The position numbers and the translations under genes are program-made. From positions 1 through 64,000 of the forward strand of contig CANHVU010000009.1 of assembly GCA_947464275.1 (NCBI GenBank): 64,000 nucleotides of DNA, read 5' to 3'. This document shows, piece by piece, positions 1 to 8,237 of this stretch; position 1 is the first letter of the stretch, and every line of letters starts with the position of its first letter. Under the pieces are notes generated by a model. The model searched no databases. It worked only from the letters and a program-made list of their open reading frames with translations, and was not told the DNA's origin. The stretch is from Bacteroidota bacterium (lineage in GTDB: Bacteria; Bacteroidota; Bacteroidia; UKL13-3).

Positions 1-201
1 GGAAGTAATTTTTATTGGTTCTTTTTTTCTCTCAACCTGCAAATTTACTTTGTTGTCTATTGTGTTAATTGTGTCGCGGTTTAAAATAATCTTGCTCGGT
101 TCAGTTGTATAAATAGTTATGTTCTTATGCGACTGGTTCATAATTGTCGCACAAGAAGTCAAAAGAATTGAAACCGTCAAAATGTAAAGTGTCTGTCTCA
201 T
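1..201 (-). CDS. Lipoprotein, C-terminal part outside the window
   Basis: The first 67 codons of a leftward gene are present; the rest lies beyond base 1. It starts at the ATG complementary to 199-201. The N-terminus has a basic residue, a short hydrophobic stretch and a lipobox ending LLTSC, so the product is expected to be an acylated lipoprotein. The residues after the cysteine (CATIMNQ) resemble a motif common at the start of small Bacteroidota lipoproteins. The gene is divergent from the XRE regulator at 861, with a 660-bp repeat-rich spacer between them. Function is unknown. Confidence 0.6.
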   Translation of the reverse strand, partial: MRQTLYILTVSILLTSCATIMNQSHKNITIYTTEPSKIILNRDTINTIDNKVNLQVERKKEPIKITS

Positions 202-369
202 ATTATGGCAGGTAACTAGTATATATGGATGCATTTTGCATCCTTTTACCTCCAATTTAGGTACATAAAGAATGTATTTTTGCATACTTTTCAAACATAC
301 TTGTTTTTTCATAAATCCTAATAATCAAATAGGCTTTTATTGACGCTAGCAATTTATTCCTACACAAAG

Positions 370-398
370 ACGTGACAGGTTTTAAAAACCTGTCACGT
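370..398. repeat. Perfect 29-bp palindrome (GACAGGT...ACCTGTC)
   Basis: Two 14-base arms (ACGTGACAGGTTTT and its complement) are separated by one base. A shortened version with 11-bp arms lies at 1197-1223, on the other side of the XRE gene. It looks like a REP-type intergenic palindrome or a bidirectional terminator. Confidence 0.6.
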
Positions 399-467
399 CT
401 AATACCTCGCTAGTAATAACCATTAAACCATTTAGCACGTTACTAATTCTTTGGATAGATAATTTTT

Positions 468-765
468 ATTACAAAAAATTGTCGCTCCATTACAGAACAG
501 TAAAATTCATTACAACAATTTGTTCGCGCCTTAGTCGGCTGTAAATCTCATTACAAAAATTTGTCCGCGCCTTAGTCCGCAGTAAATCCCATTACAACAA
601 TTTGTTCACGCCTTAGTCGTCAGTAAATTGCATTACAACAATTTGTTCCCGACTTAGTCGGCTGTAAATCTCATTACAGCAATTTGTTCCCTACATCGTC
701 AGCAGTAAATATATTTACATTTATTTGTACCTAACATTGTCGGATACAAATAAAATTACCATTTT
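468..765. repeat. 41-bp tandem repeat array, about seven units
   Basis: Units begin at 468, 509, 550, 591, 632, 673 and 714, always exactly 41 bp apart, and a degenerate eighth starts at 755. Each begins ATTACA followed by an AACAAnTTGTT-type palindrome and ends with GTAAA. Every junction therefore forms an inverted repeat, GTAA-N6-TTAC; the last junction (704-717 area) is nearly perfect. The spacer 202-860 otherwise holds no plausible gene. The array ends about 100 bp before the XRE regulator, so an operator role is the simplest inference. Confidence 0.75.
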
Positions 766-860
766 GTTATTATTAATTACCATTTTGGCAATATATTTTA
801 CATTTATGGTATTTTAAATGACGGGTTAAGTATTATTTTTGTATAAAAACCATACTTACC

Positions 861-1175
861 ATGAACGAAAACAAGAATATGCCTCATAATGGGCAGCTGC
901 TTAAACGCCTTATGGACGAAAGGCGCTATACGCAATCGCAACTGGCTTACGAACTAGGTACGCAAAATGTAACCGTATTTAGGTTGATAGAAAAAGAAAG
1001 TATTAGCAGCCATTACCTTTGGCAACTTAGCAATGCTATGAATATAAATTTGTTTACGGTATTGGCTCAACTACACCCTGTAAACACACCAACTGCCAAG
1101 GAAACAGAACTTGAAAAACAAGTATTGGATTTACAAAAGGAAGTAGCCATTTATAAAGAGTTACTAAGGAAATAA
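861..1175 (+). CDS. Small XRE-type helix-turn-helix regulator
   Basis: A 104-residue protein. Residues about 10-65 match the HTH_3/XRE fold: a first helix, then YTQSQLAYELG, then the recognition segment NVTVFRLIEKES, then a helix of the SSHYLWQLSNAMNIN type. Residues about 80-104 form a short charged, probably coiled helix suited to dimerisation. There is no enzymatic domain, so it is most likely a DNA-binding repressor or activator acting in the cytoplasm. It stands alone, preceded by the 41-bp operator-like array and followed by a hairpin (1197-1223). Autoregulation through the array is inferred only from position. Confidence 0.8.
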   Translation: MNENKNMPHNGQLLKRLMDERRYTQSQLAYELGTQNVTVFRLIEKESISSHYLWQLSNAMNINLFTVLAQLHPVNTPTAKETELEKQVLDLQKEVAIYKELLRK

Positions 1176-1196
1176 AACCTTTTCCTAATAAAAAAA

Positions 1197-1223
1197 CGTG
1201 ACAGGTTCTAAAAACCTGTCACG
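1197..1223. terminator. Hairpin with CGTGACAGGTT arms
   Basis: Arms of 11 bp (1197-1207 and 1213-1223) enclose a 5-base loop 21 bp after the XRE stop codon. It is the same sequence family as the palindrome at 370-398. No strong T-run follows, so termination is possible but a repeat-family origin is as likely. Confidence 0.45.
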
Positions 1224-1265
1224 GTTGATATTGGTGTTTTAACCACTTCGCTTTGCAGTATTAAG

Positions 1266-1691
1266 TTACCTCATATCAAAGTCCACCATCCATTCAATAC
1301 CAAATTGATCTCTCAACATACCAAAATAGCTACCCCAAGGACTTTCTTGTATAGGCATTTCTACTTGCGCACCTTTTGAAAGGCCATTAAATATTTTATC
1401 GGCTTCTTCTTTGCTTTCTGCATTGATAGAAATTTTGCTTCGGGTTTCCACTTCGCTGTGTTTTCCCATTTGCTCAGGGGTATCGCTACCCATTAACATA
1501 CTGTTTTTGCCAATGGGCAATACAATATGCATAATTTTTTCAGCTTCCTTTTCAAAGTTAGGAGCGCCTTCAAAACTCATATCTTTAAAACGAACAACGG
1601 TAGCAAATTCGCCACCAAATACTGATTTGTAAAAGGTAAATGCTTCTTCTGCATTACCGTTAAAATGAATGTAAGGATTAATTGATGCCAT
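1266..1691 (-). CDS. VOC/PhnB-like metalloprotein-fold protein
   Basis: A 141-residue protein of the glyoxalase/bleomycin-resistance/dioxygenase (VOC) superfamily, PhnB-like branch. The start MASINPYIHFNGNAEEAFTF and the end (PWGSYFGMLRDQFGIEWMVDF) are characteristic: a beta-alpha-beta-beta-beta half, then the family's closing strand with a glutamine and tryptophan. Members usually bind a metal or small ligand as a dimer, but substrates vary, so no reaction can be given. The ATG at 1689-1691 is a clear start. It is a single-gene unit convergent with the XRE regulator. Confidence 0.8.
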   Translation of the reverse strand: MASINPYIHFNGNAEEAFTFYKSVFGGEFATVVRFKDMSFEGAPNFEKEAEKIMHIVLPIGKNSMLMGSDTPEQMGKHSEVETRSKISINAESKEEADKIFNGLSKGAQVEMPIQESPWGSYFGMLRDQFGIEWMVDFDMR

Positions 1692-1910
1692 GGTTTTTAT
1701 ATTTTTTGTTTCATAATGCTATTACAATCCTATTGTATTTTTTCATTTTTAGCAAGTCATATTTACCAATTATATCACTGTAATACTTGAAAAAATTTTG
1801 TAAAAAATGTCACGTTTGGTGTTTCATAAATTGATGTTGGCAAAGACGCACAACATCGGCTGGAGGAATAAAACTCAATAACCCAGCAACCCATAACTCA
1901 AACAACTTTA

Positions 1911-1950
1911 AACTATCAACTATCAACAGACAACTATCAACTAAACTAAC
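1911..1950. repeat. Low-complexity AACTATCAAC repeat
   Basis: Several imperfect copies of ACTATCAACT occur in the 322-bp gap between the VOC gene and uvrA. I see no gene in this gap; it also holds AT-rich sequence and, at its right end, a promoter for uvrA. Confidence 0.5.
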
Positions 1951-1984
1951 TAAATTTAAATCCATTAATACAAAACAAAGTGCT

Positions 1985-1992
1985 TATTTTTG
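1985..1992 (+). promoter_or_regulatory. Bacteroidota -7 element for uvrA
   Basis: TATTTTTG fits TAnnTTTG and would place transcription start near 1999, about 15 bases before the first ATG of uvrA. The -33 TTTG is poor. Confidence 0.45.
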
Positions 1993-2013
1993 TAGTTACT
2001 AAAGTAAATACTG

Positions 2014-4944
2014 ATGCTTTTAGCAAACTTGTGTAACAGCAACTTGCCAGAGGCTAGTAGCAGTAGCCAGCCGCAAAAAATGACAAATAATCAAACGGAA
2101 AACACCACACATTTAGAAGACGAGTTTATAGAAATACTTGGTGCAAGGGAGCATAATTTAAAAAACATTGATGTAAAAATTCCTCGTAATAAGCTAGTTA
2201 CCATTACTGGCTTAAGCGGAAGTGGTAAATCATCGTTAGCTTTCGATACTATTTTTGCAGAAGGTCAGCGCAGGTATATGGAAAGTTTTAGCGCTTATGC
2301 CCGTCAGTTTATTGGCAATATGGAGCGCCCCGATGTAGATAAAATAAATGGACTTTCGCCCGTTATAGCCATTGAGCAAAAAACGGTAAACAAAAATCCA
2401 CGTTCTACCGTGGGCACCATTACCGAAATTTACGATTTTTTACGTTTGCTTTATGCCCGTGCTGCCGATGCTTACAGTTACGAAAGCGGAGAAAAAATGG
2501 TAAAAATGACGGAAGAGCAAATTATTACCGGCATTATTACCCAATTTGAAAATAAAAAAATTAGCATTTTAGCACCTTTGGTAAAAGGGCGCAAAGGCCA
2601 TTACCGTGAGCTTTTTGAACAAATACGCAAACAAGGTTATACCAAAGTTAGGCTTGATGGCGAGGTAAAAGAAATAGCGGCTAAAATGCAAGCCGACCGT
2701 TATAAAATACACGATATAGAAGTACTGATAGATAGAATTGAGGTACGCAAACCCGATAGAGTGCGCGTAGCCGAAAGTGTAAAAAGTGCTTTAAAAATGG
2801 GTAAAGGAACCATGGTTTTGCTCGATAACGAAACCAACCAATCCTACCATTTTAGTAAATACTTAATGGATCCAAAAAGTGGTATCAGTTACGATGAGCC
2901 GCAGCCCAATTCATTTTCGTTTAACTCGCCTTACGGTGCTTGCCCTACTTGCGATGGTTTGGGAGTAAAAAGTATTATTGACGAAAATGCCATTATTCCT
3001 GATAAAAAACTGAGCATTAACAAAGGTGCTTTAACGCCACTTGGCGAAATAAGAGAAAACTGGACTTTTCTTCAGCTGCGCGAAATAGCCAAAAAATACA
3101 AATTCAGTTTTGCCGATCCGATTGAAAAATTATCGAAAGAAGCATTGGATGCCATTTTACATGGTAGCGATGAAGCCTTGGTAATTCCTTATCAATATGC
3201 CAGCGGTTACACCCAAAACTACAATAGCCATTGGGATGGATTGATTCCTATTATTACCAAAAACTATTTAGAAAAAAGCAACGATTCTATTTCAAAATGG
3301 GCAGAAGAATTTATGCAGCTCCTACCCTGCCCTGATTGTAATGGCGCTAGGTTAAAAAAGGAATCGTTACATTATAAAATTGGCGATAAAAATATTGCAG
3401 ATTTAGCCCAAATGGAAATTACTGCTTTGGGCCATTGGTTTAATAACGAAGTAGATAAGTTATTAGATAAAAAACAAACCATAATAGCTGCCGAAATTTT
3501 AAAAGAAATTCGCAGCCGTATTCAGTTTTTAATTGGCGTTGGCATTGATTATTTAACTTTAAACTCACCTTCCAAAACCTTGAGTGGGGGAGAGGCACAG
3601 CGTATTCGTTTGGCTACACAAATTGGCTCACAACTAGTAGGTGTGTTATATATTTTAGATGAGCCAAGTATTGGTTTGCATCAGCGCGATAATAACCGAT
3701 TGATTAATTCTTTAAAATCGCTGCGCGATGTAGGCAATAGCGTTATTGTGGTGGAACACGATAAAGACATGATGCAGGAAAGTGACTATATTTTAGATAT
3801 TGGTTACGGAGCGGGTATTCATGGTGGGCACATAGCTGCGCAAGGCACTTGGGACGAAATTATAAAATCAAATTCGGTTACTGCGCAATATTTAAATGGT
3901 ACCAAACAAATTGAAGTACCCAAAACAAGGCGCAAAGGCAATGGTAAAAAATTAGTTTTAAAGGGTGCCACAGGCAATAACTTAAAAAATGTTACTGTAG
4001 AGTTTCCATTAGGAAAACTAATTTGTGTTACTGGTGTAAGTGGTAGCGGAAAATCTAGTTTAATTAACGAAACTTTATACCCCATTTTACGTCAGCACTT
4101 TTACAATTCGCATCAAAAACCTTTGACTTATAAAGAGTTTAAAGGCATTGAACATATTGATAAAGTAATAGAAATTGACCAATCGCCAATTGGGCGTACA
4201 CCACGCAGTAATCCTGCCACTTATGTAGAAGTTTTTTCAAATATTAGAGATTTATATGCTGCTCTTCCTGAGTCAAAAATTAGAGGTTATAAACCTGGAA
4301 GATTTTCGTTTAACGTAAAAGGTGGTCGCTGCGAAACTTGCCAAGGTGCAGGTATGCGCACCATTGAAATGAATTTTTTGCCCGATGTATATGTTAAATG
4401 CGAAACTTGTAATGGTAAACGTTATAACCGCGAAACATTAGAGGTAAGGTTCAAAGGCAAATCTATTAACGATGTGTTGGACATGTCGATAGAAGATGCA
4501 GTTAAGTTTTTTGAAAACACACCACAAATATTGCGCAAAATAGAGGCCTTAAACGATGTAGGTTTGGGTTATATAACGCTGGGTCAACAAAGCACTACTT
4601 TAAGTGGTGGCGAGGCGCAAAGGGTAAAACTAGCTACCGAATTAAGTAAGCGCGATACCGGAAATACTTTTTACATTTTAGACGAACCAAGTACAGGTTT
4701 GCATTTTGAAGATGTAAAAGTGCTGCTTGATGTAATTAATAAATTGGTTGAAAAAGGAAACTCTGTTTTGGTTATTGAGCACAATTTAGACATTATAAAA
4801 GTAGCAGATCATATTATAGATGTAGGACCAGAAGGAGGTAAATATGGTGGGCAAATATTGTGCGAAGGCACACCAGAACAAATTTGCAACGAACCCAAAA
4901 GCCATACAGCTAAATTTTTAAAACCAGAATTAGGCTTAAAATAA
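2014..4944 (+). CDS. uvrA: Excinuclease ABC subunit A
   Basis: UvrA is the damage-recognition ATPase of nucleotide excision repair; it loads UvrB on distorted DNA. The 976-residue protein has two ABC ATPase halves. The first Walker A (GLSGSGKSS) is near residue 66 and its signature [12 protein letters not shown] is near 524, followed by [10 protein letters not shown]. The second Walker A (GVSGSGKSS) is near 674, with [12 protein letters not shown] near 864 and [10 protein letters not shown]. Zinc-binding CxxC pairs are visible (CPTC/CPDC in the first half, CETC/CETC in the second). The first 22 residues are not family-like; the ATG at 2080 is an alternative start. It stands as a single gene. 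Confidence 0.97.
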
Positions 4945-5007
4945 AAACCTAAATTAATTTCACTATATTAAATAAAACACCTTTCATAGAAAAAAGGCTG
5001 AAAAGCA

Positions 5008-5037
5008 AAAAGGCTATCTTAAATAAGATAGCCTTTT
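5008..5037. terminator. Bidirectional terminator between uvrA and rplY
   Basis: Perfect 14-bp arms (5008-5021 and 5024-5037) with a 2-base loop, an A-run before and a T-run after. It sits between two convergent genes and can serve both. Confidence 0.85.
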
Positions 5038-5056
5038 ACATTTATTAAGTCGTTAA

Positions 5057-5644
5057 TTATTTTTTCTTACCTTTAGCATCTTCAGTTGCTGCTGAAACTG
5101 CTGCTCTAGTAGTTTTAACTGTAACTACAGGATTATTAGGTGAGTCCATTAAAGTAATATTTGAAACTGTAATATCACCAACTTTAATTGATTTACCAAT
5201 TTCTAATGTTTCGATATTGATTTCGATAGATTCAGGTAAATTAGCTGGAAAACCTTTAACTTTTAATTTTTGTTGTTTAACCATCAATTTACCACCTTGA
5301 CGAACACCAACTGAATTACCAACACATTTAACAGGAATCAAAATGTCAATTTGTTTAGCTTCATCTAATTCCATAAAATCAGCATGGATAATAGAATCGT
5401 TAACTGGATGATATTGAATATCTTTTAAAACTGCTTTAAATACTGAACCATCAATATCTAATTGCACTTTATAAGTATTTGGAGTGTAAACTAAAAGTTT
5501 GAAATCAGCTTCATACATAGTGAAGTGAATATGCTCTTTACCACCATATAATACACATGGTACTTGACCTGCAGCTCTTACTAATTTTGTTGCTGCTTTT
5601 CCTAAATCGTTACGTTTGTAACCAAACATTGCTACTGTTTTCAT
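5057..5644 (-). CDS. rplY: 50S ribosomal protein L25 (CTC/TL5 form)
   Basis: A 195-residue two-domain L25. The N-terminal 5S-rRNA-binding beta-barrel spans about residues 1-90 (VPCVLYGG near 28-35, then the IQYHPVNDSIIHADFMEL segment). The C-terminal TL5 domain follows (VPVK-type strand, GGKLMVKQQKLKVKGFPANLPE), with a lysine- and alanine-rich tail. It binds 5S rRNA in the central protuberance of the large subunit. It lies 92 bp downstream of prs on the same strand, and the two probably form one transcript that ends at the hairpin 5008-5037. Confidence 0.95.
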   Translation of the reverse strand: MKTVAMFGYKRNDLGKAATKLVRAAGQVPCVLYGGKEHIHFTMYEADFKLLVYTPNTYKVQLDIDGSVFKAVLKDIQYHPVNDSIIHADFMELDEAKQIDILIPVKCVGNSVGVRQGGKLMVKQQKLKVKGFPANLPESIEINIETLEIGKSIKVGDITVSNITLMDSPNNPVVTVKTTRAAVSAATEDAKGKKK

Positions 5645-5736
5645 TCTTTGTTTTCTCCTTTTTACTTTTTAAAAAATTTGGCAAAACCCATTTTGGAATC
5701 CCAATACTAATTTTGCTTTTTGGTTTATAATTTATT

Positions 5737-6684
5737 TTATTTTTTCAAATCGAATAATGAACTGATACTACCATGTTCATTTACATTTCTAATAGCTTCA
5801 GCAAATAAATCGGCCGAAGTTAATACTTTAATTTTTGCACTTTCTTGTTTTAAAGGAATGGTATCGGTAACCACTAACTCATCAATTACTGAATTTTCAA
5901 TAGTTTCGTAAGCTTTTCCTGATAAAACTGGGTGAGTACAGAAAGCTCTCACACTTAAAGCGCCTTTATCTTTCATTAATTGTGCAGCTTTGGCTAATGT
6001 ACTTCCAGTGTCAATAATGTCATCTACCATTACTACGTGCTTTCCGTTCACGTCACCTATTAAGGTCATTGCAGCTATTTCATTAGCTCTTCTTCTTTCT
6101 TTATCGCAAATTACCATATCAATTCCTAATGCTTTTGCATAAGTTCTTGCTCTGGTAGTTGAACCCATATCGGGCGAAGCAATAATTAAATTACCAACAT
6201 TAGCTAAATTTTTAATATATGGTAAAAATATTACCGATGGATCCATGTGATCAACCGGAATTTCGAAAAATCCTTGAATTTGAGGTGCGTGTAAATCCAT
6301 TGTCATTACTCTACTTGCACCAACAGCTGTAAGCATATCAGCAACCACTTTTGAACCAATAGCTACACGGGGTTTATCTTTTCTGTCCTGACGAGCCATA
6401 CCAAAATATGGAATAACAGCAGTAATATAATGAGCAGATGCGCGTTTTGCAGCATCAATCATTAATAATAACTCCATTAAATTATCAGAATTGGCAAAAG
6501 TAGATTGAATTAAAAAAACATCGCAACCACGAACACTTTCATTAAAACTTGGCTGAAATTCGCCATCACTAAATCGGGCAGTAGTACAATCTCCAAGTGG
6601 CTGACCAAAGGCGTCAGCAATTTTTTCAGCTAAATAACGTGAATTTGTTCCTGAAAATAATTTGACTTGATTATTATTTGCCAT
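5737..6684 (-). CDS. prs: Ribose-phosphate pyrophosphokinase
   Basis: Makes PRPP from ribose 5-phosphate and ATP, feeding purine, pyrimidine, histidine, tryptophan and NAD synthesis. The 315-residue length is normal for class I enzymes. Visible motifs are the N-terminal FSGTNSRYLAEKIA, the FSDGE loop near 39-43, the flexible-loop region YFGMARQDRK near 105 and the PRPP-binding VVMVDDIIDTGST near 218. The start is the ATG complementary to 6682-6684. It is preceded by tRNA-Gln on the same strand with a promoter beyond it (6873-6880) and followed by rplY, so tRNA, prs and rplY may be co-transcribed. Confidence 0.96.
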   Translation of the reverse strand: MANNNQVKLFSGTNSRYLAEKIADAFGQPLGDCTTARFSDGEFQPSFNESVRGCDVFLIQSTFANSDNLMELLLMIDAAKRASAHYITAVIPYFGMARQDRKDKPRVAIGSKVVADMLTAVGASRVMTMDLHAPQIQGFFEIPVDHMDPSVIFLPYIKNLANVGNLIIASPDMGSTTRARTYAKALGIDMVICDKERRRANEIAAMTLIGDVNGKHVVMVDDIIDTGSTLAKAAQLMKDKGALSVRAFCTHPVLSGKAYETIENSVIDELVVTDTIPLKQESAKIKVLTSADLFAEAIRNVNEHGSISSLFDLKK

Positions 6685-6770
6685 GATTTTGAATTTATGA
6701 AACCCTTAAGTAAACAATTAGCTTACCTAAACATTGTTAAGTAAGCTAACTATTAATTAAAACTAAATTG

Positions 6771-6843
6771 TTGTCCGACTAGGGCTCGAACCTAGACTCT
6801 ACTGAACCAAAATCAGTTGTGTTGCCAGTTACACCATCAGACA
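6771..6843 (-). tRNA. tRNA-Gln (anticodon TTG)
   Basis: A 73-nt cloverleaf read on the reverse strand. The 7-bp acceptor TGTCTGA/TCGGACA has one G-U pair; the D-arm is GTGT/ACAC; the anticodon stem ACTGA/TCAGT holds the loop TTTTGGT with anticodon TTG; the T-arm CTAGG-TTCGAGC-CCTAG is perfect. The discriminator is A and CCA is not encoded. Confidence 0.95.
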
Positions 6844-6872
6844 ATTTCTCAATTCTTCCGTTTTGAGGAGTG

Positions 6873-6880
6873 CAAATGTA
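6873..6880 (-). promoter_or_regulatory. -7 element for tRNA-Gln/prs/rplY
   Basis: CAAATGTA on the plus strand is TACATTTG on the minus strand (TAnnTTTG). It predicts transcription start about 20 bases before the mature 5' end of tRNA-Gln. Confidence 0.6.
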
Positions 6881-7043
6881 AAATCTTTTTACAGATTGTA
6901 AAGCATTTTTAAAAAAAAATTTATTGATAAAAAGCAACTTAATAAAAACCAGCGTATAAAAAAATTAACGGCTGTGCAAATATTGTGGCTAAAGAATGCA
7001 ATAATAATAGAACTTTTGTAGTTGTAATAATAATTACAACAAA

Positions 7044-8237
7044 TTGAACAATATATTAACCATAGCGCTCATTTCGCCTTATTCTGGAAATAGATTTGCC
7101 ACCTATTTGAATTACTATGCCGAAAATTTACTTAAAAAAGGTAAAAAGGTAATTGTAATTAGCCCCGAGTTTTCTGAAATAGCTGAATACGTAAAACTAA
7201 AAGTTCCTCGCTATTTAGATAATTTTACCGCTTTGCCGCTTGATGAAAAAATATTTAGCGATAACCGTCCCAATTATTTTGAACTTTTAGGCCGTTGGAA
7301 TGCTATTAACAGTAAAATTAAACAAGCTGAAAAAATTGTAAATGCCGAAGTTGATTTTGCATTCTTCTCTCCTATTGATCCTTTTATTCGTGAATCGGTA
7401 AATCTTTTTTTGCTAGATTTTGTATTCAGCTACAAATGGAGTGGCATTTATTTTAACCCAAAACCATACAGACTAAAACAACTAAAATTAAATGTGGACC
7501 CTAAATTTTTGGAACCCGATTATTTGTTTAGATCAAAAAACTGTGTTGGCGTTTGTGTTTTAGATAGATTTATAACCGAACCACTAAAAAGTAGGGTTTA
7601 TAAAAAAGTAGTGGTATTTCCTGAAATAAGTAATGTGAGTATTCAAAAAAAGGAATCGGTTTATAGCAAACAAATAAAAGAAATGGCCAAAAGCCGTGTA
7701 GTAGTTGGCTTGCTTGGTGTAGAGCAAAACGAAGGGATTACGGCTTTAATTAGGTTAATAAAAAAAGTGGATACTGATAAATACTTTTTTGTATTTGCAG
7801 GCAAACTTGATTTTAAAATAATGGACGAAAAACAGCGTCAAGAAGTTGAACTGTTTATGAACGACCATGCGCCAAATATTCTTTTCATCTTACAACCATT
7901 AACTGAAGAGGAAATCAACCAAATTTATAAGGAAATTGATATTAGCTACTTATATTTTTACAATTACGTTTCTTCCAATAATTTACTGACCAAGGCAGCT
8001 TATTACCAAAAACCAATTTTAGCCAATAAAGATTTTTGCGTTGGCGATACGGTAAAAAAATTTAAAATTGGTTTAAGTGTTAACGGTAAAATGGAGGAAA
8101 GTGTAAATGCGCTTGAATTTTTAAGGCTGGAACGACTTGACTTCAACGTCTTTGATAAAGAAGCATTTAGCGAATATTATGCTTTACAAAGCGATTCTTT
8201 TTTAACAAATGCCTTCGAGGAAATTATGTTCTTTTAG
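7044..8237 (+). CDS. GT4-like glycosyltransferase
   Basis: A 397-residue protein with a two-Rossmann GT-B layout. The N-terminal half has ALISPYSGNRFATYL...KKVIVISPE, and the C-terminal half starts with VVVGLLGVEQNEG near 222, with a nucleotide-sugar-domain-like stretch (FVFAGK, then SYLYFYNYVSSNNLLTKAAYYQKPILAN). The usual EX7E motif is not obvious, so donor and acceptor cannot be named. No ATG is available at the N-terminus; the frame starts at TTG (7044). It stands alone. A sugar-transferring role in the envelope is likely but not shown. Confidence 0.6.
   Translation: MNNILTIALISPYSGNRFATYLNYYAENLLKKGKKVIVISPEFSEIAEYVKLKVPRYLDNFTALPLDEKIFSDNRPNYFELLGRWNAINSKIKQAEKIVNAEVDFAFFSPIDPFIRESVNLFLLDFVFSYKWSGIYFNPKPYRLKQLKLNVDPKFLEPDYLFRSKNCVGVCVLDRFITEPLKSRVYKKVVVFPEISNVSIQKKESVYSKQIKEMAKSRVVVGLLGVEQNEGITALIRLIKKVDTDKYFFVFAGKLDFKIMDEKQRQEVELFMNDHAPNILFILQPLTEEEINQIYKEIDISYLYFYNYVSSNNLLTKAAYYQKPILANKDFCVGDTVKKFKIGLSVNGKMEESVNALEFLRLERLDFNVFDKEAFSEYYALQSDSFLTNAFEEIMFF

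Follow-up and report, generated by a model that had tools for sequence, protein, structure and literature searches.

Our searches in and around a 64-kb stretch of DNA from a Bacteroidota bacterium (the window: the whole stretch analysed, part of contig C9 of a 3.40-Mb assembly) indicate that the phased array near its start is probably a private operator platform, cooperatively bound and autoregulatory, of the small XRE (HTH-coiled-coil) protein encoded next to it, a reading drawn from sequence comparisons. XRE-linked arrays of this kind were found in 23 genomes, and like arrays stand beside genes of an unrelated family of ~160-aa proteins.

The array and its surroundings

The whole 41-bp unit is repeated, spacers being absent, and TRF gives 41 as the period with 84% matches and 0% indels, in agreement with a first-pass annotation of this DNA that had described seven units exactly 41 bp apart (Table 1). 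The same annotation placed a GTAA-N6-TTAC dyad at every unit junction, and six such dyads do follow one another at exact 41-bp steps; over the 64 kb of the window this pattern has 10 matches where 1.97 +/- 1.49 are expected, a count reached by none of 100 shuffles, and the array junctions make up six of these matches. A second motif, AACAAnTTGTT, had been assigned to each unit and is exact in only three of the seven (units 2, 4 and 5). The proposal that the units span four helical turns and so present every site on the same side of the DNA stands as to the approximate number of turns, but 41 bp amounts to 3.90 turns at 10.5 bp per turn, a drift of about -34 degrees per unit, and same-face placement of the sites needs a local twist near 10.25. 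Similarly, the array does lie upstream of the 104-aa HTH gene, but to place it just before that gene was loose: the true end of the array is 754 and the gene starts at 861, ~106 bp past the last unit. The repeat was rightly taken to be non-coding, and we rejected a coding repeat, since none of the periods 41, 22 and 44 is divisible by three.

Table 1. Positions of the array, of the features around it in the window, and of the partner gene loci discussed below.
Feature	Position	Strand	Remark
Perfect palindrome GTGACAGGTTTTAAAAACCTGTCAC, odd centre base	372..396	.	5' of the array; probably a bidirectional terminator
Phased array, seven 41-bp units	468..754	+	Unit starts 468, 509, 550, 591, 632, 673, 714
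First 14-bp GTAA-N6-TTAC dyad	500..513	.	At unit junction
Further five GTAA-N6-TTAC junction dyads	starts 541, 582, 623, 664, 705	.	41-bp steps
Two degenerate ATTACC half-motifs (755 and 776), spacing 21 bp	755..795	+	Past the last full unit; TRF period 21, 749-795
Promoter-like box TATTTTTG, fits TAnnTTTG	834..841	+	27 bp before the start codon
104-aa protein with an XRE/HTH_3-like domain at its N-terminus and helix 79-103 at its C-terminus (probable coiled coil)	861..1175	+	
Palindrome of 372..396 again, 1 mismatch	1198..1222	.	Probable terminator, 3' of the XRE gene
Partner gene loci	L178-L227; e.g. L177:3387-3830, L174:948-1448		

The Pfam HTH_3 model matches the window protein weakly (E 6.3e-4, 20.2 bits, below the cut-off of 23). 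A profile of the XRE family searched against the PDB gave SinR (1b0n) as its best match, over the HTH part (30.9 bits, E 2.3e-6), and also matched the 434 repressor chain (weakly, E 0.0016), HipB and C.BclI. A structure prediction from three near-identical sequences (pLDDT 53.4, usable for helix layout only) agrees with a C-terminal helix that is probably a coiled coil.

The in-phase dyads stand upstream of the regulator's promoter-like box, the layout of an autoregulator's operator array. This box fits TAnnTTTG, the Bacteroidota -7 box consensus, and the three other close copies of the gene have a box of the same type too, at -27 or -28. Across the family, such a box was found within 110 bp of the start codon at 13 of 40 array loci versus 3/38, 2/40 and 0/40 in three controls.

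The palindromes on either side of the array and gene are best read as terminators, because the sequence is also found beside unrelated genes: GTGACAGGTTTTNAAAACCTGTCAC (up to 2 mismatches) occurs at eight places in the genome, four of them by the two array-XRE copies, one by an XRE remnant and three by unrelated genes. On the same grounds we rejected a mobile element bounded by the palindromes. The remnant (L023, G000:C16:39337-39408) is the C-terminus of an XRE copy, interrupted by stops, next to a terminator-like palindrome, and no array was seen there. A separate stretch of the flank, 331-356, is repeated near other genes of sister genomes (stretches in L015 and L016) and forms an imperfect attC-like inverted repeat; the integron cassette that this led us to suspect was rejected, as a TIGR02249 integrase scored over the cut-off in none of six genomes.

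The gene has as neighbours in the window a divergent ORF truncated at the contig end, a convergent glyoxalase-like gene on the opposite strand, and an ABC ATPase that we take to be UvrA-like from its sequence. We rejected a type II toxin-antitoxin antitoxin (HigA, Xre-RES), the next gene being the glyoxalase-like one and no toxin, and a plasmid-type partition locus (ParMRC/TubZRC), no motor ATPase or GTPase gene standing among these neighbours. A CRISPR was likewise rejected, with no spacers and, on reading the ORFs of 1-8000, no cas-like gene; nor was a Rep-like gene, as at an iteron origin, recognised on reading the ORFs of this interval, the contig beginning at base 1.

Copies and sites in the genome and genus

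A second copy of the array and gene lies on contig C3 of the same assembly, with nine units and a protein of 98% identity. The gene is present in four of ten genomes of the genus, with an array ahead of all five gene copies, and orthologous arrays were found in three sister species. Unit counts, whose comparison across strains had been proposed as a check in the first-pass annotation, are 7, 9, 5 and 6 in the close copies. Over 27 units, drawn from four gene copies, mean identity is 94.9% in the eight dyad columns and 77.2% in the other columns (column permutation p = 0.0019), so that the palindromic ends are the least variable part of the unit, as had been thought from the window alone. In 23 comparisons of adjacent units we counted 230 substitutions and 0 indels. 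A more diverged 41-bp array, that of G006, stands beside a protein of 53% identity; all five of its units read ATC at positions 3-5, where the other copies read a TAC-like TTAC/ATTAC, and the other dyad arm is GATA in two of the five, one junction being a perfect GATA-N6-TATC.

These comparisons bear on the reading of the array as a neutral tandem repeat, its register kept solely by the duplication mechanism, which the first-pass annotation already disfavoured and which we consider very improbable. Such a repeat could vary in unit number, as seen here, and its middle units could be more alike than its edge units, as they are here and as in concerted evolution; the substitutions without a single indel, the conserved dyad columns, the travel of the array with its gene in five of five cases, and the recurrence of the layout in other families, tied to two gene families and to one period class (79 of 80 arrays, below), all speak against it.

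Further genomic sites had also been proposed as a check. In the window's genome all 13 matches to the fuller motif with at most one mismatch fall in the two self-arrays; there are four scattered places with two mismatches, and matches with three mismatches are about as common as those of a reversed control pattern. In G192, 11 of 11 matches to that genome's own motif fall in its own array. Neither genome thus holds full sites of its motif outside the self-arrays.

Phased arrays across the XRE family

The periodicity scan covered 480 bp upstream of each locus and periods of 14-94 bp, with a threshold of z >= 5. Set A consisted of 92 of the 115 matches listed from 395 genomes of the class Bacteroidia, together with G004 (93 loci, 91 after removal of two with too little upstream sequence). 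The threshold was reached at 41 of the 91 loci, 40 of which have periods of 21, 22, 41, 42 or 44 bp or multiples of these; the remaining one, G403 (period 15), is not of the class and was left out of the 40. Downstream control regions of the same loci gave repeats in 2/91 (periods 72 and 45). By profile score, arrays were found at 10/10 loci of at least 100 bits and 8/9 of 60-100 bits (together 18/19 at 60 bits or more), then at 8/21 of 50-60 bits, 6/25 of 40-50 bits and 9/26 of 30-40 bits, the last bin including the period-15 match.

Set B, searched phylum-wide in 395 genomes, comprised 47 loci, namely the fetched loci not at the same place as a set A locus (G302 apart) and 20 more places. 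It had arrays at seven of nine loci scoring at least 75 bits and at none of 38 weaker XRE homologues, with repeats in 2/47 downstream controls. The two G302 loci are common to both sets and were left out of set B in the tally of 80 arrays given below. The fractions for high-scoring loci are not unbiased, because two of the five proteins behind profile A2 were picked for having arrays, and profiles A3 and A5 were made from array loci only; the 0/38 among weak homologues, the 34/43 non-training loci of the partner family (below) and the distribution of periods are less affected by this.

Other genes gave no such signal. Of 100 genes taken from the window and from four sister loci, six reached z >= 5. 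Five of these are XRE genes and the sixth is a divergent gene sharing an array; the ordinary genes gave 0/94. A gene-blind scan of 178.5 kb of longer loci, mostly selected for arrays, found that all stretches with z >= 7 were such arrays, except one in L014. Among the loci scanned we also noted side-by-side pairs of related XRE genes (G171:C33, G138:C44, G202:C3, G231:C18 and G286:C101), without phased arrays, and, in another small HTH family, numerous paralogues sharing a conserved FRKNIYT-like tail (11 matches in G669 and five each in G347, G609 and G658), also without arrays.

The XRE gene is mostly solitary: by simple ORF calls its downstream neighbour is convergent in 22 of 31 cases, and the upstream gene is co-directional in 28 of 36. 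Several array-linked paralogues occur per genome, up to seven, and both their recognition-helix regions and their unit sequences are highly variable. This variability, the number of paralogues and the patchy occurrence in the genus (four of ten genomes) would fit a solitary immunity-like module, in which a repressor-type protein of fast-changing specificity and a decoy or operator array would act against incoming elements carrying the same operator. We regard this as improbable, as the window protein has no relative in phage records, those of G054 and G601 have none in IMG/VR and that of G054 none in plasmids, the window motif has one exact IMG/VR match, isolated and outside any array, and PADLOC gives weak HTH matches. 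A phage or plasmid origin was rejected on these same searches, and a defence-system link on the weakness of the matches.

Register and unit sequence

We collected 80 arrays, and the period is a multiple of 20.5-22.3 bp in 79 of them; 20 of the 81 periods scanned fall in this class. Odd numbers of turns (31-32, 52-53 or 73-74 bp) were never the best period among the 80. A 21/42-type register free of odd turns is what a two-turn spacing of bound dimers would give. Within this register the unit sequences differ wholly between loci, e.g., CATAG-N4-CTATG, TGAC-N6-GTCA, AGGTTT-N-AAACCT and GGTGTTNAACACC. When folded, 21 of 40 units are significantly palindromic and 19 of 40 have no significant dyad. 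In G184 both dyad arms change together, CAGAG/CTCTG in place of CATAG/CTATG. Intrinsic curvature was rejected as an explanation, an A-tract being present in only 18 of 40 consensus units.

That the array acts as RNA, as a hairpin leader or a small RNA, also seems to us to have very little chance of being right. Its RNA does fold better than shuffles in the window (z -3.44), as is also expected from palindromic repeats, but a search of Rfam gave no match, the promoter-like box stands after the array, and a clustering of periods at multiples of ~21 bp is not needed by RNA hairpins.

Motif similarity does not track protein identity overall (Spearman 0.08, permutation p 0.078), in a comparison that excluded G403, the two set B loci of G302 and four set A loci whose genes are broken or partial. 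Motifs are alike only where the proteins share more than about 55% identity, a pattern equally expected from plain linkage. In G601 an array on contig C11 (L173:1242-1496; 22/44 bp) carries the same motif as two XRE arrays of that genome, with no adjacent XRE gene and no convincing XRE remnant; the genes after it are presumably an antitoxin/PIN-toxin pair.

An unrelated protein family beside like arrays

At 15 array loci the gene directly upstream of the array belongs to a single unnamed family of about 150-170 aa, for which searches of Pfam, NCBIfam, PHROG and the PDB gave no convincing match. This partner family is present in 37 of 395 genomes of the class and absent from G000, G001, G003 and G006 of the window's genus. 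At the 50 loci examined, out of the matches listed, a phased array lies within ~520 bp downstream of the partner gene in 41 (24/30 and 17/20), and in 34 of 43 when the seven loci that defined the family are set aside; on the upstream side z >= 5 was reached at 6/50, two of these at 20 or 21 bp. At G302:C2:303869-304339 (L189) a partner gene has a 21-bp array upstream and not downstream. Among 34 partner-linked arrays outside the XRE sets, 33 lack an adjoining XRE match, and the genes that follow partner-linked arrays, where read, are unrelated to one another. Two partner proteins were not found in plasmids, and one partner protein was not found in phages. A hairpin followed by T residues stands between partner gene and array at 14 of 20 loci (a count with no control set), and on this account the partner-linked arrays look like untranscribed DNA.

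The assignment of the window array, in the first-pass annotation, to an XRE regulator is supported by the tie of such arrays to this XRE clade; as a description of the class it holds less well, and because many like arrays adjoin an unrelated protein family without XRE gene, part of the class may fall outside "operator array of an XRE regulator". The partner-linked arrays suggest that the wider class has a structural role or one resembling partition. Applied to the array in general, this would make it mainly a structural DNA site (an anchor, a centromere-like site or an insulating nucleoprotein scaffold), with the XRE protein as one reader module, the partner as another component and autoregulation as secondary. 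We think this unlikely, if clearly less so than the immunity-like, neutral or RNA readings: same-register arrays following the partner gene, the hairpins that make them look like untranscribed intergenic DNA and the lack, in both genomes checked, of a regulon with full sites all argue for it; against it, the window's genus has no partner, several arrays with differing motifs per genome contrast with the one centromere of a chromosome, and no ATPase or filament protein was seen adjoining the loci read.

Comparison with known systems

The phage 434 repressor and Cro recognise 14-bp dyads with an N6 spacer, several operators standing at the regulator's own promoter, in clusters of three between divergent promoters, and the system has a lysogeny partner. 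The array resembles this system in its 14-bp N6 dyads at the gene's own promoter and in the weak profile match to the 434 repressor chain noted above, and differs from it in having five or more units, a solitary gene and, in our searches, no phage relatives. The plasmid partition centromeres parC and tubC are bound by the HTH or RHH adaptors ParR and TubR. Like them, the loci described here place short repeats in an array immediately ahead of a gene for a small DNA-binding protein, with autoregulation and a higher-order complex as probable further parallels; unlike them, they are chromosomal, have no adjoining actin- or tubulin-like motor gene, and occur as several arrays per genome with differing motifs. 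SinR, the best PDB match for the HTH part, controls a regulon, whereas the window's fuller motif is confined to the self-arrays.

BldC and RdfS belong to HTH families other than the XRE type found here. Both are small DNA-binding regulators linked to direct repeats or to oligomerisation on DNA (PMC6428758; PMC11963761), and the portions of those papers available to us describe no private phased array such as that found here. In Pseudomonas putida the Xre of the Xre-RES toxin-antitoxin pair has, according to the accessible part of the report, two potential DNA-binding sites and acts on a repeat at its own promoter, a palindromic repeat with a suggested secondary site (PMC12204516); what is described there differs from the window locus, where the array is phased and no toxin stands by the gene.

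Interpretation and significance

Our preferred reading, the autoregulatory operator platform, can be put as follows. XRE homodimers would bind the 13-14-bp dyads, one dimer per dyad, and the two- or four-turn spacing would put the bound dimers on one face of the DNA and in contact, either directly or via the coiled coils at their C-termini. The outcome would be a regular, cooperatively assembled nucleoprotein array next to or over the gene's own promoter, allowing a steep setting of the XRE protein's own level, most likely by repression, since in many loci no more than about 20 bp separates the end of the array from the start codon. In the window ~80 bp lie between the end of the last full unit and the promoter-like box, and any action there would accordingly come from upstream. 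We count against the operator reading the 19 of 40 units that are not significantly palindromic, the failure of motifs to track proteins, the arrays without XRE genes and the inexact helical turns of a 41-bp unit.

In the open-access literature we found no description of such arrays; one paper mentions unexplained periodic repeats in prokaryotes and, in the part available, no XRE arrays of this kind (PMC6344855). As the operator array of an autoregulator, the window locus is a variant on a known theme; a phylum-wide element with a partner protein could be a new kind. It is conceivable, and we put it forward tentatively, that Bacteroidota chromosomes carry an undescribed class of element, consisting of phased arrays of locus-specific sequence in a fixed two- or four-turn register together with the ~160-aa protein, with or without an HTH-coiled-coil protein. 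Such elements might form regular nucleoprotein fibres that serve in structure, partitioning or immunity instead of plain gene regulation, the window array being a member without partner.

The wider array class and its partner protein are the more novel part of these findings, and the occurrence of this family by arrays in 41 of 50 loci points to a system absent from the literature searched. Because the unit sequences diverge beyond recognition while the 21/42-bp register is kept, the arrays amount to a natural experiment on helical phasing, and the dozens of protein-array pairs with different sequences could help to decode XRE recognition and to build orthogonal cooperative promoters.
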